Positions 2,516-25,491 of a DNA stretch of 33,793 nucleotides are shown one piece after another. Position 1 is the stretch's first letter; each line of letters starts with the position of its first letter. Origin of the DNA: an uncultured Deferribacteraceae bacterium (GTDB lineage Bacteria; Chrysiogenota; Deferribacteres; CAMZNJ01); assembly GCA_947313825.1 (NCBI GenBank), contig CAMZNJ010000020.1, positions 1-33,793 of the forward strand, given 5' to 3'. Below the pieces are notes generated by a model. That model did no database searches, was not told where the DNA came from, and worked only from the letters and a program-made list of their open reading frames with translations. The position numbers and the translations under genes are program-made.

Positions 2516-4252
2516 CTAGGCACCCTCTTTGCTAGCGGTGGACTCGTAGAGGTTTTTGTACAAACTGCACGACTTCAGCAATTCGCTATGCACCCCCGAG
2601 GCTTCCACATGGTTGTTGCTGATGACAAATATTTTGCTAGCGTTGATAATGGTGGAGAGCCTGTGTGCAATGACTATTGTTGTTCTGTTCCCCATGAGGT
2701 TGTCGATGGCTTGTTGCACTACTCGTTCGGATTCTTGATCCAGTGCGGATGTTGCTTCGTCAAGCACCAGTATGGGGAAATCGGAATACATGGCACGGGC
2801 AATGGTTAGGCGTTGGCGTTGTCCACCACTAACACGCAAGCCACGTTCGCCAATAACGGTTTCATAACCGTCGGGGAACTCCATGATAAAATCGTGTGCG
2901 TACGCCTTTTTGGCAACATCAACAACCCTATCCATGTCCATGTTTGCTTCACCAACTGAGTAGGCGATATTTTTGGCGATGGTGGTGTTGAATAGGAAGT
3001 TGTCTTGGGAAACGTACCCAACATTACGACGTATGGAGTCTATGCTGCAGTCCAGTATGCTTTCGCCGCCAATCAGAATATCCCCTGAGTTCGGACGGTA
3101 AAACATGCCGAGAAGGTTGCCGATGGTGGTTTTGCCCCCACCCGACGGACCCACAAGGGCAACGGTTTCGCCATGGTTTATCGTCATGTTGAGGTTTTTG
3201 AGCACAGGCACCTCGCCATCGTAGGAGAAGTCCACGTTGCGAAACTCTATCCCTTTGTTGGTGGCGTCTAGGGTTTTGCTACCCAGCGACAGGTGTGATT
3301 CCTCGGCTTGGGAGAGAACGTCGTTGATGCGATCAACAGCCGCAAACGATATTTGTATGCGTGCATTGGCGGCACCAAGAACACGTACGGAGGGGAGAAT
3401 GTTTATCAATGCCAAAACATACGCCAGCAGTGAGCCGTAAGAGATATCCCCCTGCATCACTCGCACGCCCCCAAAATAAAGGAGCACGGCCATACCTAGC
3501 ACACCAACAAACTCAAGGAACGGACCGTTTAGCTCGGCTACCCAAGTTTGTCGTAACCCTATTTTTGTGAGGCGTTTGTTGGCATTCTTGAAGCGATCCT
3601 CCTCATACTGCTCGCGGGTAAACGCCTTCACAACCGTTACACCGGCAAATATCTCTTGGAGGGTATTGGTCAGAATACCCATACGTTTTTGCCCTTCTTC
3701 GCTGTAACCACGGATGATTTTGCCGATTTTGACCACAAACCAAATAACAAAAGGGTAAAGGATGAACGTCATCAGGGCAAGCTGATAGTCGAAGTAAAAT
3801 AGGAGCGAAACCATCACCAACACTCGAGTTGCATGGGAAAATATGTCGGTAACAACGTTGAGAGCATCCGCCATAATACCTGTGTCGTAAGTAACACGGC
3901 TCAACAACTCACCTGTGGAATGGTTCGACAGGTAACTCATGGACAGACGCACTAGTTTGCCCAAAAGTATGTTACGAAGCTCCATAACATACTGGAACGC
4001 AACATAACGCATGAGGATTGTTTGACCAAACTTGACGAGTAGCTTGATAAAGTTCGCCAAAACAATGGCAGCAGCAATGAGTATTAATGCCTTGGTGTTA
4101 TCTGCTGAAATAGCTGTGTCGGTGAGAGCCTTGATGCCGTACACCGTTGCACCATCGATGGCAGATGCAAACATCGCCGCAACCATCGCAATAATTAAGT
4201 AGTACCTATATTTTATAATATAACTTCTGAGGGTTAATTTCTGGGGCGACAT
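2516..4252 (-). CDS. msbA: MsbA-like lipid flippase, ABC transporter with fused membrane and ATPase domains
   Basis: The 578-residue half-transporter has a six-helix exporter domain (about 1-310) and a nucleotide-binding domain (about 335-578). Visible motifs are Walker A GPSGGGKT (368-375), the Q-loop Gln416, the signature VSGGQ (474-478), Walker B ILVLDE (494-499) and the switch His530. Length and layout match the MsbA family, homodimers that flip lipid A-core across the inner membrane. Two lipopolysaccharide-type glycosyltransferases lie just downstream, which supports a role in glycolipid export. The related multidrug (LmrA-like) or other lipid exporters of the same subfamily cannot be excluded. 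GAGGAGGAG lies just upstream of the ATG. The gene is divergent from the capsid gene, with 202 bp between them. Confidence 0.82.
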   Translation of the reverse strand: MSPQKLTLRSYIIKYRYYLIIAMVAAMFASAIDGATVYGIKALTDTAISADNTKALILIAAAIVLANFIKLLVKFGQTILMRYVAFQYVMELRNILLGKLVRLSMSYLSNHSTGELLSRVTYDTGIMADALNVVTDIFSHATRVLVMVSLLFYFDYQLALMTFILYPFVIWFVVKIGKIIRGYSEEGQKRMGILTNTLQEIFAGVTVVKAFTREQYEEDRFKNANKRLTKIGLRQTWVAELNGPFLEFVGVLGMAVLLYFGGVRVMQGDISYGSLLAYVLALINILPSVRVLGAANARIQISFAAVDRINDVLSQAEESHLSLGSKTLDATNKGIEFRNVDFSYDGEVPVLKNLNMTINHGETVALVGPSGGGKTTIGNLLGMFYRPNSGDILIGGESILDCSIDSIRRNVGYVSQDNFLFNTTIAKNIAYSVGEANMDMDRVVDVAKKAYAHDFIMEFPDGYETVIGERGLRVSGGQRQRLTIARAMYSDFPILVLDEATSALDQESERVVQQAIDNLMGNRTTIVIAHRLSTIINASKIFVISNNHVEASGVHSELLKSCSLYKNLYESTASKEGA

Positions 4253-4454
4253 CCGCTCCTCCTCTTTCGTAAACCAATCAGGAAATCAGACCAATCATGC
4301 AATCAGGCAATCATAGCCCGTTTTCAAACACCAAATTATATCACCATTGCATAGTTTTTGCAAAAAAACTTTCCCTGTCCATGCCTGTGCTTATCTTTGG
4401 ACAGCAACAACTGTAACATGCTCACACACCACCAATAACAAGGAGACTTAAATT
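4253..4454. promoter_or_regulatory. Divergent intergenic region between msbA-like gene and capsid gene
   Basis: The 202-bp region must hold the promoters of both divergent genes. It contains four CAATCA repeats (within 4275-4314), a perfect 7-bp palindrome AGTTTTT/AAAAACT with a 4-base centre (4353-4370), and 6-bp arms CTGTCC/GGACAG (about 4375-4404). No clear sigma-70 promoter was found for the capsid gene. AAGGAGA precedes its ATG. No attachment-site repeat matching the far end of the cassette was seen. Confidence 0.5.
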
Positions 4455-5435
4455 ATGGCGATAACTAGCACATCATACCCACAGGCAAACCTCCCCTCAA
4501 CAGGAACTAAACCATCCGTTTACGAAGGGATTATCCTCGTGGGAAGCGACGAAACACCCATGCTCAAAGCAATGGGAACATCCGAAGTAACAAACACATC
4601 CCACTCCTGGGTAATCGACAAAATCGGAGACCCTGAACGTACGCCCGAAAACGAAATATCATCCCTCAACACAACCCAAGTAAACCACAAACAAAATAAC
4701 AGCAACGCTGTGGAAATATTCAAAACCGAACTGTTCGTATCAAAAACAATGACCCAAATCAAAGCTTACGGCGGAAACGAACTCGAACACGAAGTAGCAA
4801 AAAAAGCCAAAGAACACAAAAAACTACTCGAACAGATGATTCTAGGACTCAACAGAGACAACGACCCAAAAACATCTCTACTCAAAGAACCGATTCACCG
4901 TAGCGAAAACCAACCTGGGGAAGCAGCAGGAATGTTCTACTTCATCGCAAAAGGGGAAACAACTTTCACCAACGGCAAAAAAGGGAACATATCCGCTTAC
5001 GACAGCTCAAAAGACTGGACCGGTACAAAATCCACGATGGACTGGAACAAATTCAACACAATTCTACAACAAACATACAACGCTGGCGAAACTGTCAAAG
5101 ATGTTTTCGTCGGCACAACCCTAAAAGCACGAATAAACTCCTTCGTAAACAGAAACTACAGCGACCAAACAACTTACGTCGGAAGGCTAGTCGCACTCGA
5201 AACCGACTTCGGCACAGTAAACATACACCTATCAAGATTCATGAACGAAGCAAACGCACTGGATGACACTATCATTGCAGGAAACTTCGACTATGCCAAA
5301 GTAGGACTACTCTACCCAACAGAACTCGCGGAAGTACACACCGACAAAACTGGTGTAGCCAAAAGGTACTACACTGAAGCAACACTGGAGCTACGTAACG
5401 CTGACGCGTTCTCCATAGGCGTCGGTCTGAAGTAA
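4455..5435 (+). CDS. Major capsid protein, SU10 type (DUF5309-like)
   Basis: The 326-residue protein has the pattern of the SU10 major capsid family, an HK97-fold shell protein of short-tailed phages. An N-terminal segment has the expected ETPMLKAMGTSEVTN region, followed by SWVIDKIGDP. A central helix-rich stretch reads LFVSKTMTQIKAYGGNELE (about 93-111) followed by charged helices. A Gly-containing beta segment around DFGTVNIHLSRFM follows, and the C-terminus has the family-typical TEATLELRNADAFSIGVGL. The length of about 300-330 residues fits. AAGGAGA precedes the ATG. It is the first gene of the plus-strand cassette. It should form the shell of a capsid if expressed. No protease gene is nearby. 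The call rests on remembered family patterns, not on a search. Confidence 0.85.
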   Translation: MAITSTSYPQANLPSTGTKPSVYEGIILVGSDETPMLKAMGTSEVTNTSHSWVIDKIGDPERTPENEISSLNTTQVNHKQNNSNAVEIFKTELFVSKTMTQIKAYGGNELEHEVAKKAKEHKKLLEQMILGLNRDNDPKTSLLKEPIHRSENQPGEAAGMFYFIAKGETTFTNGKKGNISAYDSSKDWTGTKSTMDWNKFNTILQQTYNAGETVKDVFVGTTLKARINSFVNRNYSDQTTYVGRLVALETDFGTVNIHLSRFMNEANALDDTIIAGNFDYAKVGLLYPTELAEVHTDKTGVAKRYYTEATLELRNADAFSIGVGLK

Positions 5436-5453
5436 GCAACTGAAACAATAATC

Positions 5454-5519
5454 TGCCCCCCCCACAACACACAACACACAACAACAAAACACACCTCGAT
5501 TAACACCAAAGGGGGGGCA
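5454..5519 (+). promoter_or_regulatory. Long-range C7/G7 hairpin with unstructured CA-rich loop after the capsid gene
   Basis: TGCCCCCCC (5454-5462) is perfectly complementary to GGGGGGGCA (5511-5519). The 48-base loop is almost purely C and A and should not pair with itself. It lies between capsid and the next gene and is not followed by a U-run. It is therefore more likely a partial terminator, processing or stability element that lowers downstream expression than a full intrinsic terminator. The function is inferred. Confidence 0.5.
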
Positions 5520-5553
5520 AAATCCTAACACAGGAACGAAACAGGAGTTAACA

Positions 5554-6255
5554 ATGAGAAACTACTCGGAGGAATTCGACCACTTCGACATGCTCATGCT
5601 ACGCGGTCGCCTCGACTCTATCCTACCGAACAAAACCGAAATAGGTGAACGACCGTTCATATTCTTCCCCCGTGCCCTAAACGCTTTCCACGATATGTGC
5701 GTTAGCATCATCCCTGCACGATTTGTACGAACCGACCCCATAAACAATGTGAAATACAAAACACTCACCAATACATTTTTCCTAACATACGAACCCTTTA
5801 CTCGACGACTCTCATACATGACACAACGCGATACCACACTACTAATGGACGACTACACACTGGATATCTTCCTCTACTTTGTCGCAATGGAGATGACCCA
5901 AACAGAAAAAAGCAGGCGATACCTTAGGGAAGAGATGAGTGGCGTCATCGAAAATCGCAACTGGGAATTTTACAACTACCTTGAAGAGCAGGGTTTCACC
6001 GATTACGACAGCAAAGACGCCCTCATTCGTGCAAGAATCGAATTCGAAAATAACCCCGCTGTTTTTGAAGCCAACTTCAACGGCGTTGTCAAAGTGTTTG
6101 CACCCAAATACCTAAATTTCCTCAGAAAATACCTTGATGATCGAACAATGGAAATACCATTCGAATACAAAACGTACACACTCAACTTCGTAAACAAACA
6201 GGACAACAACCTACCAATGAATCAGGACGAACTACTGCTACAATCCTCAATCTAG
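5554..6255 (+). CDS. Unknown protein of the phage cassette, possible head-completion or adaptor protein
   Basis: I do not recognise this 233-residue protein. It has no signal peptide or membrane segment, is mixed helical/beta in appearance, and is rich in aromatic residues (for example FLTYEPFTRRLSYM and YLNFLRKYLDD). CAGGAG precedes the ATG. It sits directly after the capsid gene, where head-completion or neck proteins are usual in phages, which is the only basis for the suggested role. Confidence 0.6.
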   Translation: MRNYSEEFDHFDMLMLRGRLDSILPNKTEIGERPFIFFPRALNAFHDMCVSIIPARFVRTDPINNVKYKTLTNTFFLTYEPFTRRLSYMTQRDTTLLMDDYTLDIFLYFVAMEMTQTEKSRRYLREEMSGVIENRNWEFYNYLEEQGFTDYDSKDALIRARIEFENNPAVFEANFNGVVKVFAPKYLNFLRKYLDDRTMEIPFEYKTYTLNFVNKQDNNLPMNQDELLLQSSI

Positions 6256-6304
6256 CAGCAACCTCACTGAAGAAACAAAGGTGAAAAAACGAACAGGAGC
6301 AAAC

Positions 6305-6862
6305 ATGCAAACTTACACACCTCGCAACGGGTACGCCATAAGATACGTGGACTACGCCCGAACAATCAACACATACCTACAATCCTCAGACTACTTCTTC
6401 GTCATCGCCGAAAGGCAAGCCGGAACCATGGGACTCAACGACATGGAACCCGAAAAACGAATGGAAGCTCTTTTCCGCTTCGCCGGGAAATACTTCGCCG
6501 ACATGCAACGACTAGCCCATGACGCTGCCCTCGCTCTAATGAAAATGGCCATCGACAACGAACAGCATGATGCCAAACTCGCCATCCAAACATTGAACGA
6601 GGTGGGCAAAAACAGTGCAAGCGTACTGGAAAGCTACATAGCCGCCGCTACAAAAGTTAACAGCTACGCACTCACTACCGACAGATTTGTTGCCTCCCAA
6701 CAGAGCTTTATCTCCCTGAGCAGTGCAACCATAGAGCAGTGCTACGACCTCATGTCTAAAGCTGGGCGGAAGTATTATACGAAGGGAAGGATGTATCGAA
6801 GCAGTACCGACTGGAACGCTAGATACACAGTAACGAGCATGACAAACAACATACCGGTGTAG
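6305..6862 (+). CDS. Unknown helical protein of the phage cassette
   Basis: The 185-residue product is not recognised. The middle (about 45-130) is strongly alpha-helical and rich in Ala, Met, Glu and Lys, with no membrane segment. The ATG at 6305 was chosen because AGGAG lies six bases upstream. An in-frame GTG at 6281 would add eight residues but has no ribosome binding site. It follows the previous gene by 49 bp and is probably co-transcribed with it and the capsid gene. A minor structural or neck role is possible from context only. Confidence 0.6.
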   Translation: MQTYTPRNGYAIRYVDYARTINTYLQSSDYFFVIAERQAGTMGLNDMEPEKRMEALFRFAGKYFADMQRLAHDAALALMKMAIDNEQHDAKLAIQTLNEVGKNSASVLESYIAAATKVNSYALTTDRFVASQQSFISLSSATIEQCYDLMSKAGRKYYTKGRMYRSSTDWNARYTVTSMTNNIPV

Positions 6863-6968
6863 GGGTGCTGGTCAGTCAACAACTGAAGGCACAGCGATAC
6901 GGGAACAGTAGGGTTTGGGAGGGGAGCAGTTCAACTTTCAGTATGGTGAACTTAGTTTCTGATTATTT

Positions 6969-6997
6969 CAATAAGTTGACAATTGGTAAACTTATTG
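6969..6997. promoter_or_regulatory. Perfect 9-bp inverted repeat, likely operator
   Basis: CAATAAGTT (6969-6977) and AACTTATTG (6989-6997) are perfect inverted copies separated by 11 bases, so equivalent bases lie about two helical turns apart (20 bp arm centre to centre). The left arm overlaps the -35 box and the right arm fills the spacer of the promoter below. This is the classic placement for a dimeric repressor. The binding protein is unknown. Confidence 0.6.
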
Positions 6998-7004
6998 CTA
7001 TATT
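6976..7004 (+). promoter_or_regulatory. Near-consensus sigma-70 promoter
   Basis: The -35 box is TTGACA (6976-6981), the spacer is 17 bp, and the -10 box is TATATT (6999-7004). Transcription would begin near 7011 and read into the helix-turn-helix and portal genes after a leader of about 265 bases. It is the strongest promoter match I found in the window. Confidence 0.65.
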
Positions 7005-7205
7005 CTTAATTGAAATTCATATTTAAGCAATATGTTCCCATGCAACAGGTGCTATACACTAAAAACCTTTATGCATAGTGGTTTTAACGCTTTTAATTAT
7101 TACTCCATCGTTGCTGCTTGCCTACTCAAATTGTGCACGAAAAAGCACTGTATTGCAAGCACAACAACGCTCTTAGTGTGCTTACTGTTACATTAGTCCA
7201 ACGTT

Positions 7206-7230
7206 AACTATTTGTATACTTTTAATAGTT
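7206..7230. promoter_or_regulatory. Second dyad with 11-bp spacing around a TATACT box
   Basis: AACTATT (7206-7212) and AATAGTT (7224-7230) are perfect inverted copies, again 11 bases apart. The centre contains TATACT (7215-7220), which could be a -10 box, but no good -35 box lies upstream. A promoter needing an activator, or an autoregulatory site 47 bases before the helix-turn-helix gene, are both possible. Confidence 0.4.
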
Positions 7231-7276
7231 TTACCAAAATAAAACTTTTGTATTTTAACTACACTTGGAGGGATAT

Positions 7277-7645
7277 ATGACAAAACAAAGTAATGCCACA
7301 GAGTTCCACGATGAATCCAACACATTTGATACCATTGTAGAGGCGTTGGACGGAGACTTCTTGGCTGCGTTTCGCCTATGCGAATACTTGAGCGGATTGG
7401 TGATACGCATACCATCCAAAATGCACCGCATGAAGCTTGCACGCGTACTAATTGAGATAGACTGCAGCCAAAACGATGTGCGGGAAAGTACTGGCATTAG
7501 CCGTGCTAGCTACTACAACCTTGCCCGATCGTATCGCGAAGAGTGTCGTGAAGATTTGGATTATACCGGCGACTACGACGCGACTAAAATGGTACGACAA
7601 CACACTACTACCTCATCGCACCTGAAAAACAATCAACTACTTTAA
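7277..7645 (+). CDS. Helix-turn-helix protein, Mor-activator-like or small-terminase-like
   Basis: The 122-residue product has a short beta-prone segment GLVIRIPS (about 40-47), then helices, then a helix-turn-helix (about 65-88, QNDVRESTGISRASYYNLAR). This order recalls the Mor/C activator family of Mu-like phages: a dimerisation strand followed by a C-terminal DNA-binding unit. Its place immediately before the portal gene is also where a small terminase subunit, which has a DNA-binding helix-turn-helix, might sit. The ATG at 7277 is chosen over an in-frame TTG at 7265 because the TTGGAGGG ribosome binding site overlaps the latter. It may bind one of the dyads upstream of it. Assignment between the two families is open. 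Confidence 0.6.
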   Translation: MTKQSNATEFHDESNTFDTIVEALDGDFLAAFRLCEYLSGLVIRIPSKMHRMKLARVLIEIDCSQNDVRESTGISRASYYNLARSYREECREDLDYTGDYDATKMVRQHTTTSSHLKNNQLL

Positions 7646-7661
7646 ACTAAAGGACATCATA

Positions 7662-9194
7662 ATGAATAACCTAAACGATTTACGCGGAATCATTGAGGAC
7701 GCCCAACGTGGTTACGCCAGATATAAACCCACCTTTGACAAGATTACTGATAATTATATCGGTCGATTTGACAAGGAATCTCGCCGAAATATGCAGGAGC
7801 GTGGCAAGTCTCATATCTTTTTCCCCATCATCAACACAAAGGTCAAGCGTATTGCAGCGGCATTCCAAGCAACGTACTTCAACCTCGAATCCCTAGCACT
7901 TATCGCTCCCGAAAACCCTCAGGACGCACAAAAAGCGAAAACCCTCGAGCGTGTGCTAAACACTCACCTCCAGCGTAGTGCTTTGCTGACGAGGCTTACG
8001 CCAACATTCTATCAGGGGATACTCTACGGTACTGTTGCTGCAAAATGCTTTTGGGACAACGGCATCGTCATCGAGCATATCCCGTTGGAGGACATCTACT
8101 TTGATCCGAACGCCAAAACATTCCAAGACTCAACATACGTGGTCAACAGAGTGTATCTCTCTGAAATGAAGTTCAAAGAGTTAGGACGCAAGGGGGTGTT
8201 TGCCTCAAAGGAGTTCCAAAAAGCTTTGAGCGAAATCACAAATAATGAGAGCAAAAAACATAAGGTCAATAAACGACTAAGTAGCAAAGTAGAGCTCATG
8301 GACGTTTACACACGATACAGCCTCAAAGATAGAAACAGCACAAGTGGAGACATGTGGTACATCTCAACCGTAATGGGGGGGAAATATGTGCTCCGATCGT
8401 TTGTGCCACTGAAAGACGGGCTACCAATCTTCTCAGGCACACTCCTACCACAAATAACACCTTCATACGAAACCGACGCCGTTGCATGTTACGGCGACTC
8501 ACCTATTGCCGGACTCATACCACTGCAAACTGAGATTAACATCAAGAAAAACCAGCAGATAGACAGCATTGCCGAAGCACTAAACCCAAAAATGATTGCT
8601 GCAATAGGATCAGGTATCAACCCAATGGATATAAAGCGGGGACCCGGAAGCATTATTCGAGTTAACGCACTAAACGCCATACAAGTTATGAAAGCACCAT
8701 CGGTGGGCATTACCGAAAACCAAATCGACGAACTCAAAAAAGATATCGACGAAGCACTGGGTATCGATCCGCTCATAAGCTTGCAAAAATCTGACGGCAA
8801 ATACCAAACAGCTCAAGGACTATCAATACTAGCGTCAGAGGCGGCAACAAGGCTCCAAAGCATGATCCGATCCTACAACGAAACTTTCTTTGAAGAGATG
8901 CTAGGACACGCTACAAGACTAATTTACCTACACAGCAAACACGACGCTCTAAAAGAGATGCTAAAAGAAGACGTTTTCCGATTCTCAACAATAATATCGT
9001 CAGGACTAAGTGGTGCAAACGTCAACGTACAAGCCTCACTGATGGAAAAAGCATTCAAAATGTACCTCGAATCTGAAGACAAAGAAGGGGCACAACAGAT
9101 GCTCAAAACACTGGTGCACACCATGGGCATAAAAGCCTCGGAAAGCTCCGAACACCTTGAAACAAACAACAACAATAACCAAAACCAAACTTAA
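7662..9194 (+). CDS. Phage portal protein
   Basis: This 510-residue protein looks like a P22-type portal of short-tailed phages, the dodecameric ring through which DNA enters and leaves the head. Supporting features are an N-terminus with a GRFDKESRRNMQERGKSHIF segment followed by INTKVKRIAAAFQATYF, and the central IEHIPLEDIYFDPNAKTFQD. Next comes the stem/clip-like LIPLQTEINIKKNQQIDSIA, and then the C-terminal helical part with KSDGKYQTAQGLSILASEA. An Asn/Gln-rich tail ends the protein. AAAGGA precedes the ATG. A packaging motor (large terminase) would be required for use but is not in the window. Confidence 0.83.
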   Translation: MNNLNDLRGIIEDAQRGYARYKPTFDKITDNYIGRFDKESRRNMQERGKSHIFFPIINTKVKRIAAAFQATYFNLESLALIAPENPQDAQKAKTLERVLNTHLQRSALLTRLTPTFYQGILYGTVAAKCFWDNGIVIEHIPLEDIYFDPNAKTFQDSTYVVNRVYLSEMKFKELGRKGVFASKEFQKALSEITNNESKKHKVNKRLSSKVELMDVYTRYSLKDRNSTSGDMWYISTVMGGKYVLRSFVPLKDGLPIFSGTLLPQITPSYETDAVACYGDSPIAGLIPLQTEINIKKNQQIDSIAEALNPKMIAAIGSGINPMDIKRGPGSIIRVNALNAIQVMKAPSVGITENQIDELKKDIDEALGIDPLISLQKSDGKYQTAQGLSILASEAATRLQSMIRSYNETFFEEMLGHATRLIYLHSKHDALKEMLKEDVFRFSTIISSGLSGANVNVQASLMEKAFKMYLESEDKEGAQQMLKTLVHTMGIKASESSEHLETNNNNNQNQT

Positions 9195-9217
9195 TATCAA
9201 ACTAGGAGGAGAAAAAA

Positions 9218-9727
9218 ATGTTTACTAAAGAACAGAGGGACGCACTAGAACTAATGATTAACGCACAAGGGTGGGAAGTCCTGTCGAAAGTAATAAACGA
9301 AAGCAGGCTCGCACTCTACCAAGAAGCACTACACGGTGTCGCCATTTTCGACGGCAAATCAGAAAAACTGTCCCCAACAGAAAGAACTGAACGACTCGGA
9401 CAAATCGGCTGGCTCGACTATATTCTCAACCTACCAAAACATATCATACAAGAACACAACGAATACGACTCGCAAACAGAAGATATCGCTGACACAGAAA
9501 ATAACGACGACAACACCGAAGAACAACTCTTCAACAGCCTGCAAAAAAGCCTAGCCAATCAGTACAACGAAGCTCTAAACCTGAAACACAAAAACGAAAC
9601 AGAAATGATGCCTAACGAACAGATAAAAAATATGGCAAAAGGTATCGAAGAACAACTCTTAGCAAACGCTGAACTAAACATGAACATGAACATGAACACT
9701 CATGACGGAGAACACCAAAATGTTTGA
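9218..9727 (+). CDS. Unknown acidic protein downstream of portal
   Basis: I do not recognise this 169-residue protein. The N-terminal 80 residues are helical, a very acidic stretch follows (about 84-105, with DIADTENNDDNTEEQ), and the C-terminus carries an Asn-Met repeat encoded by a 6-bp tandem repeat. AGGAGGAG precedes the ATG. Its end overlaps the start of the next gene by eight bases. A position between portal and capsid is typical for scaffolding or accessory head proteins, but there is no direct sign of either. Confidence 0.55.
   Translation: MFTKEQRDALELMINAQGWEVLSKVINESRLALYQEALHGVAIFDGKSEKLSPTERTERLGQIGWLDYILNLPKHIIQEHNEYDSQTEDIADTENNDDNTEEQLFNSLQKSLANQYNEALNLKHKNETEMMPNEQIKNMAKGIEEQLLANAELNMNMNMNTHDGEHQNV
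9675..9696. repeat. 6-bp tandem repeat encoding Asn-Met
   Basis: About three and a half copies of the 6-bp unit AACATG lie near the 3-prime end of the acidic protein gene and encode alternating Asn and Met. The period keeps the reading frame. Confidence 0.7.
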
Positions 9728-10184
9728 TTTCAAAAAAAGCAAAAACAAACTCAACAAAGAAATAATTGAACTGAAAAAAACCATAGCCGCCAAAGAAAAT
9801 ATACTCGTACAAGAGGGACGAAAAGACGGCGACTTCGTACTCACAACAGCCGAAAGAACCCTCATCGATAGCGAACTCAAACGCATCAAAGAACGAAACC
9901 CAAGGCTATCCACATCTCTAGACTGCCTCGAGGGATGGAAACTAATTCTACAAGCGAAAGGGAGCGGACTCCCAAACACCAACATGCCATACGGAAACCT
10001 GAACAGCAAGGTCGCCAACTACAACCCCCAAGAAGAGGATAGCAACACATACACTCCAGACGTAATTCTTAGCGGGACGTCGAACTCCTCGGGGATAAAA
10101 ACAAGGGCAGACGCATTACGTGCAGGGCAACTCTCTGAGGACAAAGATACGGGAGCAGCAATACTCGAAATAGCAGCAACATAG
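9720..10184 (+). CDS. Small coiled-coil protein, possible scaffold of the phage cassette
   Basis: The 154-residue product begins with a Lys/Glu-rich helix of coiled-coil character (about 4-32, with NKLNKEIIELKKTIAAKEN) and continues with polar, probably flexible sequence ending in an Ala-rich tail. The start at 9720 is preferred to an in-frame ATG at 9702 because ACGGAG lies eight bases before it. The gene overlaps the previous one by eight bases. If the cassette is read as circularly permuted, this gene would precede the capsid gene, where scaffolding proteins usually lie. That role is inference only. Confidence 0.5.
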   Translation: MFDFKKSKNKLNKEIIELKKTIAAKENILVQEGRKDGDFVLTTAERTLIDSELKRIKERNPRLSTSLDCLEGWKLILQAKGSGLPNTNMPYGNLNSKVANYNPQEEDSNTYTPDVILSGTSNSSGIKTRADALRAGQLSEDKDTGAAILEIAAT

Positions 10185-10291: not shown

Positions 10292-11905
10292 CTACAACGC
10301 TGTATCCAGAATATTGGATGCGTATTCTAGTTCGCTTTTAGCCATTTTTGCAGTCCAGCCGAGCTCTTCCCCCATGAGTTTCACAACTTTTGGGAGTGCC
10401 TCTTTTGCTGCGTCAAGGTCTTGCAGTGCCAGCGGTATACGCCTTACGATGGCGTCGTTACCATGCTGAGCCAGTTCGTACCGTGTGGCATACACCACTT
10501 CTGCTTCCACATACGGATACCCTTCTGCCAGTCTGTTCCCTAGCCCCTTCTCTTTTATGATGTCGCATACGAGGTGTGCATTGCCTGCGTAAAAACTGTT
10601 GAGGTGTTTTGCAACGTCTTCGTCTAGGTTGTAGGTATTTTGCAGTGTAGCGTACCCTTCGGGATCGAATTTGCCCCCTTCGTAAAGTTTGACGGATTCG
10701 GTTACGCAATCGTGTTGTTGTATGAGATTTGCGTGTTCTAGTGTGAAGTTAACTAGGTCGTACGCCATTCGTCTTACGGCTGTCCATTTTCCACCGGCCA
10801 TTGTGATGAGCCCAGATGGTGCAGTGTAGATTGTGTGGTCTCGCACAAGTTCTGCTGTGCTTTCGGATTTGGATGCTATGAGCGGTCTGAGTCCGCTCCA
10901 GTACGATTTTACATCTTTTAGAGTTGCGTGTTTTGATGAGTATCGGTTGTAGTATGAGAGTAGGTATTCGATGTCTTTTTCGCTTACAACGGGTCTGTCT
11001 GTTACTTCGTCCACCAATTCGTCGGTTGTTCCGACCATTGTTTGTCCGAGCCATGGCAGTACGAATATAACGCGTCCGTCGTCGGTTTTGGGTATGAGGA
11101 AGCCGCTTTGTGGCGGTTCGAACGATTTGTTGAGGACAAGGTGTATCCCTGAGCTTGGTTCCATTAGTGCTTCTGCTTGTTCGTCGTCTAGGTGTCGTAT
11201 TTTGTCGATGAACACACCGCCGGCATTGACGAAAGCCTTGGCACGCACGGTGAATATTTCCCCTGTGAGTTTGTCTTCCACTTGAGCGGCGACAATTTTG
11301 TCATTTTCTTTGTTAAACCCTACAACTTCCATGTAGTTTGCAATGGTGGCGTTGTATTTTGATGCAGTACGCACGATATCGATGTTCATGCGTGTGTCGA
11401 CAAACTGTCCGTCGTAGTATCTCACACCGGCACGCAACCCTTCAGGGCTAAGGAAGGAGCATTCTTGTAGTGTTTTTGATTTTGAGAGGATACGGCTTTT
11501 GCCCACACTTCGTCTCCCTGAGACTTTTTCGTACACAAGCATTCCAAAGCCGAAATATATGGTTTGGAACCGTGAGTATGTGGGGATAATGGTTGCTTTG
11601 GGTTCGCTAATGTGTTCCGCATTTTTGATAAGGAAGTGTCTTTCGAAAAGTGCATCTTTGACAACTTTGAATTGGGCAAAGTCGAGTTTTGTGAAGACTT
11701 TTTCCAAGTACCTAACACCACCGTGAATTAGTTTTGTGCTTTTGCCCGATGTACCTTCGGCAAAGTCCATTTTGTCAACACAGGCAACCTTTATACCTCT
11801 GCTGGCAAAATCTAGTGTGGTGTAGGATCCTGTGGCACCACCACCTATTACTAACACATCAAACTCTTCATTTTTTAGACGCTCAAGCATCTCCGATCTT
11901 TTCAT
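10292..11905 (-). CDS. glpD: FAD-dependent glycerol-3-phosphate dehydrogenase, aerobic type
   Basis: The 537-residue enzyme oxidises sn-glycerol-3-phosphate to dihydroxyacetone phosphate and passes electrons to quinone at the inner membrane. The N-terminal FAD-binding motif is VIGGGATGSYTTLDFASRG (about 19-37), followed by the family signature TSGKSTKLIHGGVRYLE (about 53-69). ITMAGGKWTAVRRMA in the second half is the typical GGKxT segment. The length fits GlpD/GlpA-type enzymes. AAGGAG lies seven bases before the ATG. No glpF or glpK is adjacent. It is convergent with the phage cassette. Confidence 0.93.
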   Translation of the reverse strand: MKRSEMLERLKNEEFDVLVIGGGATGSYTTLDFASRGIKVACVDKMDFAEGTSGKSTKLIHGGVRYLEKVFTKLDFAQFKVVKDALFERHFLIKNAEHISEPKATIIPTYSRFQTIYFGFGMLVYEKVSGRRSVGKSRILSKSKTLQECSFLSPEGLRAGVRYYDGQFVDTRMNIDIVRTASKYNATIANYMEVVGFNKENDKIVAAQVEDKLTGEIFTVRAKAFVNAGGVFIDKIRHLDDEQAEALMEPSSGIHLVLNKSFEPPQSGFLIPKTDDGRVIFVLPWLGQTMVGTTDELVDEVTDRPVVSEKDIEYLLSYYNRYSSKHATLKDVKSYWSGLRPLIASKSESTAELVRDHTIYTAPSGLITMAGGKWTAVRRMAYDLVNFTLEHANLIQQHDCVTESVKLYEGGKFDPEGYATLQNTYNLDEDVAKHLNSFYAGNAHLVCDIIKEKGLGNRLAEGYPYVEAEVVYATRYELAQHGNDAIVRRIPLALQDLDAAKEALPKVVKLMGEELGWTAKMAKSELEYASNILDTAL

Positions 11906-12422: not shown

Positions 12423-12513
12423 ACATCACAGACCCCAGAACACCCTCTTCTTATTATCCACTAAAACTTTCGAAATATAAAGTTTTTTCGTACTCTTATG
12501 CAGAAAATTTATT

Positions 12514-12612
12514 GCAACACTTTGGGCAACACTTTGGGCAACACTTTGGGCAACACTTTGGGCAACACTTTGGGCAACACTTTGGGCAACACTTTGGGCA
12601 ACACTTTGGGCA
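12514..12612. repeat. 12-bp tandem repeat, eight perfect copies
   Basis: GCAACACTTTGG is repeated eight times without a mismatch (12514-12609), followed by three bases of a ninth copy. It lies in the 249-bp space between glmU and the small membrane protein gene. Because 12 is a multiple of three, frames stay open through it on both strands (Ala-Gln-Ser-Val on the minus strand), but no start with a ribosome binding site supports a gene. Perfect identity suggests recent expansion. Confidence 0.97.
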
Positions 12613-12671
12613 CTCGGGTATACTGTGTTAATATGGTGCAAGGGTTGAGTATCTCAAGTGCTCAGCAGGTT

Positions 12672-25027: not shown

Positions 25028-25491
25028 CCCGCACCTCTTCAGATTAATAACTATATTTTTATATTTTAATCAGTAAAACAAGTTGTATTTTTCGTGTAGT
25101 CTTTCGACTAATAATAATTGTACATCATTAAGCCACCTGAATGCTACAACTATTTGGGTAAGTTGTGTTTCTGGGTGGTCGTTTGGCAACCTTGCACAGT
25201 GTGTTCCGTGTGTGTCAGTGTTGCACTGCGTGTGTTCCGTGCGTGTCGGTGTTGCACTGCGTGTGTTCCGTGCGTGTCAGTGTTGCACAGCGTGTCAGTG
25301 TTGCACTGTGTGTCAGTGTTGCACTGTGTGTGTTCCGTGCGTGTCAGTGTTGCACAGCGTGTGTTCCGTGTGTGTCAGTGTTGCACAGCGTGTGTTCCGT
25401 GTGTTCCGTGTGTTCCGTGTGCTGTTCATTGCAATACATGGCACCTGAGACTGTAGCCTCTGGCACCATATATTATGCATAGTTTGTGTGG
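25028..25491. other. 464-bp gap between rplO and secY, mostly minisatellite
   Basis: These two genes are normally close together. The half next to secY is AT-rich and contains a small hairpin (TAGTC, four bases, GACTA at 25097-25110), which on the transcribed strand has a GAAA tetraloop. The other half is the minisatellite listed separately. The AT-rich part could hold a promoter for secY-adk-map, but no clear boxes are seen. Plus-strand frames through the repeat are Cys-rich artefacts. Confidence 0.7.
25202..25419. repeat. Composite minisatellite with 31-, 18- and 9-bp units
   Basis: The array reads as three 31-bp units (25202-25294), two 18-bp units (25295-25330, TCAGTGTTGCACTGTGTG), two more 31-bp units (25331-25392) and three 9-bp units TGTTCCGTG (25393-25419). 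The 31-bp unit is a 13-bp part beginning TGTTCCGTG plus the 18-bp part, so the array shows nested expansion of its own pieces. Copies differ at few positions. Confidence 0.95.

Follow-up and report, generated by a model that had tools for sequence, protein, structure and literature searches.

A phage-derived head-and-portal locus in a reduced Deferribacterota genome, probably part of a dispersed system resembling gene transfer agents

The genes of gene transfer agents (GTAs) tend to be distributed among several loci, and some of these loci hold one or two genes (PMC11841831). Most known examples come from Alphaproteobacteria, and the first podovirus-like one, FpGTA of Faecalibacterium prausnitzii, was reported in 2026 with a packaging and head operon and a separate fibre and lysis operon (PMC12946183). 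Here we analyse a block of seven phage-related genes at positions 4455-10184 of a 33,793-nucleotide contig (hereafter the window) from an uncultured Deferribacteraceae bacterium (GenBank assembly GCA_947313825.1, contig CAMZNJ010000020.1). In our judgement the block probably represents the head-and-portal locus of a podovirus-type phage that the host has domesticated and whose genes are now dispersed, acting as a GTA-like system. Among the papers searched, none described a GTA from Deferribacterota, and those on the symbionts to which this bacterium is related did not mention capsid genes.

Likened by description, FpGTA appears to be the closest parallel among the papers searched. It too has podovirus-like head genes (TerS, TerL, portal, scaffold and major capsid protein (MCP)) at one locus and lysis functions at an unlinked second locus, with no full prophage and a gut-associated host. 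Unlike the system described here, however, FpGTA keeps TerS and TerL with the head genes, has fibre or baseplate genes and forms proven particles, whereas in the symbiont a putative TerS-TerL pair is split off, a tail was not found, particles are a prediction and the host belongs to another phylum. RcGTA/CcGTA, BaGTA and VSH-1 (PMC11841831) are likewise made of domesticated phage genes at several loci retained by the host, but they have other phage ancestries, a main cluster with tail genes and demonstrated activity.

The window is a whole contig (C20) of the host genome (G000), a Deferribacterota genome of 1.26 Mb (1,256,116 bases over 66 contigs) at 86% completeness. The host falls in the same genus as Rimicarispirillum (M_Rainbow_MAG_00001), a gut symbiont of vent shrimps whose genome comprises 1.34 Mb and 1072 coding sequences (PMC12887300). 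We compared the host genome with the 1.34 Mb genome of a congeneric sister species (G001), both being metagenome-assembled genomes (MAGs), within a sample of 48 genomes of the class. A preliminary description of the window had picked out its sole plus-strand block, with seven open genes including an SU10-type capsid and a portal, between msbA and glpD. The map of open reading frames (ORFs) and the family matches bear this out: all seven ORFs are intact with sensible starts, and the remaining genes of the window, including a glycosyltransferase, msbA, glpD, glmU and a ribosomal-protein operon, lie on the minus strand. The MCP (326 aa, 4455-5435) matches PF17236 (SU10_MCP, E 3.5e-51) with 174.9 bits against a curated cut-off of 24.1, which places it in the SU10-type major capsid family, and phrog_1328 (E 1.5e-59). 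The SU10/T7-like portal protein (510 aa, 7662-9194) matches PF23899 (SU10_portal, E 1.2e-19) and phrog_332 (E 2e-47). Both Pfam families are shared with SU10 itself (Kuravirus), a lytic phage that encodes all the genes of its virion.

That description had also reported that terminase, protease, tail and lysis genes were missing. This stands for the window, among whose genes we saw none of these and no integrase gene, and no phage gene adjoins the block between msbA and glpD; it does not stand for the genomes, where searches for the missing parts recovered terminase and lysis genes at other loci and left the tail unaccounted for. A search of four genomes with phage TerL identified in the sister genome a TerL of 484 aa (PF03237 and PF17289; phrog_979, E 1.6e-61) whose Walker A, Walker B and nuclease acidic residues are intact in alignment with the phage enzymes. 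It is 33% identical over 459 aa to the TerL of two phage contigs, L044 and L045, and their capsid shares 48% identity with the one in the window. The TerL of a Helicobacter pullorum prophage was also considered as a close relative and rejected, being of another TerL type. The gene directly upstream of the symbiont TerL encodes 107 aa, matches no family and is taken for TerS by position only. The pair (L013:10048-11869) has an iron alcohol dehydrogenase (Fe-ADH) gene on one side and nagB on the other. In the sister genome it shares the strand of the block, lies about 20 kb away from it and adjoins no further gene recognisable as phage-derived. In the host genome the corresponding region, including the neighbouring host genes, falls in an assembly gap, so that absence there is uninformative. 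Since the window is a whole contig and the sister's terminase region is unassembled in the host genome, the 'missing motor' is missing only from the contig. Near the pair we noted by eye a tRNA-like sequence of Pro type, and upstream there may be one more ORF, of about 61 aa.

A third locus carries lysis genes. Both species have a cassette, standing alone between feoB and a lipoprotein gene, that encodes an endolysin (PF08291, phrog_894), a holin (PF11351 GTA_holin_3TM, phrog_3427) and a Mu Gam-type protein (PF07352) (L139:8629-9964, that is G001 C1:28629-29964; L217:2316-3623 on G000 C65). Lysis functions are available and unlinked, as is often so for GTAs, and the holin family PF11351 is named for gene-transfer release. 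The endolysin shares 35% identity with its H. pullorum prophage counterpart. We infer a functional link of this cassette to the head locus.

The head locus is conserved in detail between the two species. In the sister genome the same seven genes occur in the same order with the same neighbours, msbA and glpD, and every frame is intact; the MCPs are 98% identical. Gaps between the two versions are absent within the genes for MCP, ORF2 and ORF3 and are concentrated between genes and in the portal and ORF6. Ratios of nonsynonymous to synonymous change (omega; a Nei-Gojobori count from these two genomes) were 0.024 for the MCP (confidence interval (CI) 0.008-0.043), 0.054 for ORF2, 0.136 for ORF3, 0.163 for ORF4, 0.066 for the portal (CI 0.043-0.095), 0.176 for ORF6 and 0.072 for ORF7, and all seven bootstrap upper bounds were below 0.31. 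Synonymous divergence (dS) of the block genes was about 0.3-0.7, alongside a median of about 0.4 synonymous changes per site across 264 orthologue pairs. In the lysis cassette, omega was 0.030 for the endolysin, 0.113 for the holin and 0.035 for Gam. Among the 264 pairs, based on 409 kb of the host genome, the capsid ranked at the 8th percentile of omega, the endolysin at the 11th and Gam at the 14th (in this set ORF7 gave 0.083 with a start three bases later, a negligible effect). Phage-derived genes are dispersed over at least three loci, and the head and lysis loci are both syntenic in the two species and under purifying selection. The block lies far beyond chance: a second species has homologues of its genes in the same arrangement, and they are held by purifying selection.

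These data bear directly on two alternatives. Remnants of a prophage that was trimmed and scattered by recent decay and rearrangement, and that persist only by chance, would fit the lack of a tail, and a visibly decayed portal in another genome of the class shows that decay of this phage type does occur there. On the other hand, seven frames intact in two species at dS of about 0.3-0.7 with omega of 0.02-0.18, a shared insertion site, equally conserved lysis genes and a selective pattern of loss make this account improbable, and for this genus it is largely refuted already. Intact frames and low omega in both species exclude simple decay in this genus. The preliminary description had already counted the intact frames against simple decay, and the comparison of capsid and portal selection and of the locus in relatives that it proposed came out in the same direction: site and frames are shared, and the genomes of the class that were searched showed no complete prophage of this kind. 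Stable vertical retention at one site under purifying selection is what a GTA would show. An assembly or binning artefact might be suspected in view of both genomes being MAGs, and is very hard to credit: two separately assembled species agree on both junctions and on gene order, with host genes on the same contig.

Comparison with phages indicates that the locus derives from a tailed temperate phage. A capsid-alignment scan of IMG/VR yielded 79 loci (a single-protein portal scan of IMG/VR returned no matches), and the GenBank phage matches were to temperate phages of Campylobacter and H. pullorum. Six of the seven block genes, and weakly the seventh (ORF7), match genes of complete temperate phages of Campylobacterota. 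These CJIE-type and H. pullorum phages (BK070136, PV052265 and IMG/VR L040-L118) share 38-55% identity with the capsid (55% for L040) and about 27-35% with the portal (32% for the H. pullorum prophage), have counterparts of ORF2, ORF3, ORF4, ORF6 and, weakly, ORF7, and in L044/L045 have the same TerL type. Unlike the symbiont loci, the annotated ones are single 39 kb prophages or phages; the complete relatives BK070136 and PV052265 unite the modules with integrase, repressor, recombination, terminase and fibre genes. The phage order is TerL-ORF4-portal-ORF6-ORF7...MCP-ORF2-fibre-ORF3, whereas that of the block is MCP-ORF2-ORF3-ORF4-portal-ORF6-ORF7, the large gene before the MCP and the fibre gene having gone. 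The integrase and replication block is absent from the symbiont loci, no integrase, excision or replication genes accompany the structural genes, and no other cluster of this phage type was seen in the searched part of the sister genome. Capsid, portal and terminase (the last from the sister genome only) are of tailed-phage derivation. The single contiguous genome with integrase of a CJIE-type prophage is not what we found.

Phage satellites carry genes for capsid, portal and terminase but none for a tail. A capsid-forming satellite (cfPICI-like) borrowing the tail of a helper phage could account for the parts present, yet it would be expected as a single integrated island with an integrase and a helper phage. 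The block instead has no integrase or replication genes, the terminase lies 20 kb off among host genes, lysis is at a third site and no helper phage of this type was seen in the genome, which leaves a satellite with little to recommend it.

The GTA-like reading rests on the retention of genes for building heads, filling them and lysing the cell, at three or more loci, while the parts required by a phage were not found. In a subpopulation of cells, the capsid, adaptor ORF2 and ORF3, and then ORF4, portal, ORF6 and ORF7 from a promoter of their own, would assemble heads. The unlinked putative TerS-TerL pair would load these heads with host DNA through the portal, and the unlinked endolysin-holin pair, with a Gam-type protector of DNA ends, would lyse the cell and release them, so that host DNA could be transferred. 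We write 'GTA-like', rather than calling it a proven GTA, because we infer particles, cargo and transfer, and because no tail was found. Among the three options originally put forward (a domesticated head module, one locus of a split GTA or satellite, and a trimmed prophage), the tests favour the split, domesticated one.

Several observations weigh against this reading. Profiles of 98 phage protein clusters, searched over about 1.25 Mb of the sister genome's 1.34 Mb and the window, found no tail nozzle or fibre in the sister genome; the convincing matches were the capsid, ORF4, portal and TerL only, and the others were set aside as coiled-coil, Sel1-repeat or chance matches. This search is weak for fast-evolving genes, having also missed ORF2 and ORF3, so the absence of a tail is not strong. 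Strand-switched gene runs in the sister genome were scanned by eye for a tail locus, and none of the handful of candidates read fully looked phage-like; single-sequence hhalign was too weak for a genome-wide tail search. A split GTA is accordingly the best supported reading rather than a proven one, as this is a head system with no detected tail or receptor-binding module. The terminase is seen in the sister genome only and, owing to the assembly gap, is not demonstrable in the window's own genome. Neither the holin nor Gam has a counterpart in the phage set; the lysis cassette may thus have another origin than the head locus and does not have to come from the same phage. A motif shared by the promoter regions of the loci was sought and none was evident, so that nothing shows co-regulation, and for particles and packaged DNA the argument runs from gene content. 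A lone phage-repressor-like XRE regulator with a C-terminal extension in the sister genome (L147:758-1552) is a possible controller. In the tree of capsids, the shrimp symbionts join a phage (support 99/98) and not the capsids of insect-gut relatives, so the dispersed state is not clearly one inherited, ancestral GTA.

The missing tail also leaves some room for a domesticated head module with another job, such as a shell that is empty or filled with protein, a decoy or competitor directed at related phages, or a lytic weapon resembling a bacteriocin. Very strong selection on the capsid and the reduced, host-associated genome (PMC9636832) would suit such a role. A shell or decoy would not need the portal, the catalytically intact TerL and the lysis cassette that are kept, however, and there was no convincing match to a defence family; we regard this role as unlikely, though as the most serious competitor of the GTA-like reading.

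The capsid is present in four of the 48 genomes of the class: the two species compared above and two members of another family (f8), G041 (TD116_bin76) and G042, a family that we take for the insect-gut family of PMC12887300. In G041 a HicAB pair stands immediately ahead of the capsid gene, and ORF2, ORF3 and a tail-fibre-like gene come after it; this cassette is split over two contigs, whose junction falls within the capsid gene. The portal, ORF6 and ORF7 occupy a third contig with host genes on both sides. Toxin-antitoxin-like pairs stand directly upstream of both cassettes in this genome, namely a nucleotidyltransferase and partner before the portal (L197:8054-8780) and HicAB before the capsid (L180:430-995); upstream of the capsid in G042 are an N6/N4 DNA methylase and a gene of unknown family (L181:1168-2603). 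In another genome, G044, a helix-turn-helix (HTH) gene is paired with a TerL that matches the type found in Campylobacter phages (E 2e-143); a sodium/solute symporter adjoins the pair (L251:265-1786), and the contig begins 264 bases upstream of it. The broken, decayed portal mentioned above is that of G037, near rpsO/pnp, and an apparent capsid match in G036 is HemA, a false hit. A whole prophage of this phage type was seen in none of the genomes searched; the insect-gut relatives hold isolated cassettes (capsid-adaptor-fibre, portal-ORF6-ORF7 and TerS-TerL).

The portal tree groups the shrimp symbionts with G041 and the H. pullorum prophage, and a single ancestral GTA common to shrimp and insect symbionts is unsupported by the capsid tree. 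The differing TerL types of G001 and G044 also point to separate domestications or mosaic exchange. As a tentative extension, to which we give less than even credence, host-associated Deferribacterota may more than once have dismantled the same temperate podovirus lineage into unlinked operons (capsid, portal, terminase and lysis), yielding a GTA, perhaps with a very short tail or none, that would serve reduced-genome gut symbionts as a private route of DNA exchange. If a symbiont with a genome of 1.3 Mb does run a GTA-like system, then DNA exchange of phage origin can survive genome reduction. Because isolated cassettes of one phage lineage recur in the gut symbionts of shrimps and of insects, repeated domestication would become open to test. 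Furthermore, where a capsid cassette has no motor on its contig, the whole genome and that of a sister should be searched before it is dismissed as a relic.

The remaining features of the block all lie on the plus strand. The region upstream of the capsid operon (4253-4454) is 81% identical between the two species without gaps, its 3' half nearly invariant, with a ribosome-binding site, AAGGAG, ahead of the MCP start. ORF2 (5554-6255) is a probable head-tail adaptor: its family profile matches the phage gene directly after the MCP (E 7e-10), and its AF2 model (pLDDT, a predicted local confidence score, of 65) gave recurrent though non-significant matches to the tail tubular protein A fold, so that it is perhaps T7 gp11-like. 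ORF3 (6305-6862), a helical phage structural protein with no assigned role, matches phage cluster 10 (54 phages) by profile (E 3e-6), the phage counterpart sitting 5-6 kb further on from the MCP-adjoining gene; homologues follow ORF2 in G041 and G042, and its structure prediction is poor (pLDDT 42). Its most likely start is 6305 (ATG) and that of ORF7 is 9720, both matching the sister genome. The intergenic region that follows (6863-7264) contains a stretch ahead of ORF4 in which 66 of 67 positions are identical between species, and a predicted, strong and conserved promoter-like site (extended -10, sigma-70-like; TTGACA at 6976, TATATT at 7004) would give ORF4 its own promoter. ORF4 (7265-7645), a small HTH-like protein, matches phrog_6425 (E 5.8e-7) and phage cluster 11 (profile E 3.5e-7; hhalign 95.6%), a gene that lies between TerL and portal in the phages. 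ORF6 (9218-9727) is the counterpart of a small phage gene at the portal 3' end (profile match to L045 5054-5320, E 8e-6), and its homologue comes after the portal in G041. ORF7 (9720-10184), a coiled-coil protein and candidate scaffold, corresponds to the second phage gene after the portal (cluster 3; hhalign probability 81%, E 1.2e-5; HMMER weak at 0.057).

The flanking genes, an msbA-type ABC transporter (2516-4252, minus strand) and glpD (10292-11905, minus strand), lie outside the system. A plus-strand ORF of 121 aa at 25083 was disregarded as a gene for its low complexity. Several symbiont genes contain in-frame expansions of short repeats (AQSV, VADG and HTNT), among them genes at 12426-12641 of the window, at L008:2263-3447 and at L013:10048-11502; one of the expansions is inside the TerL linker.

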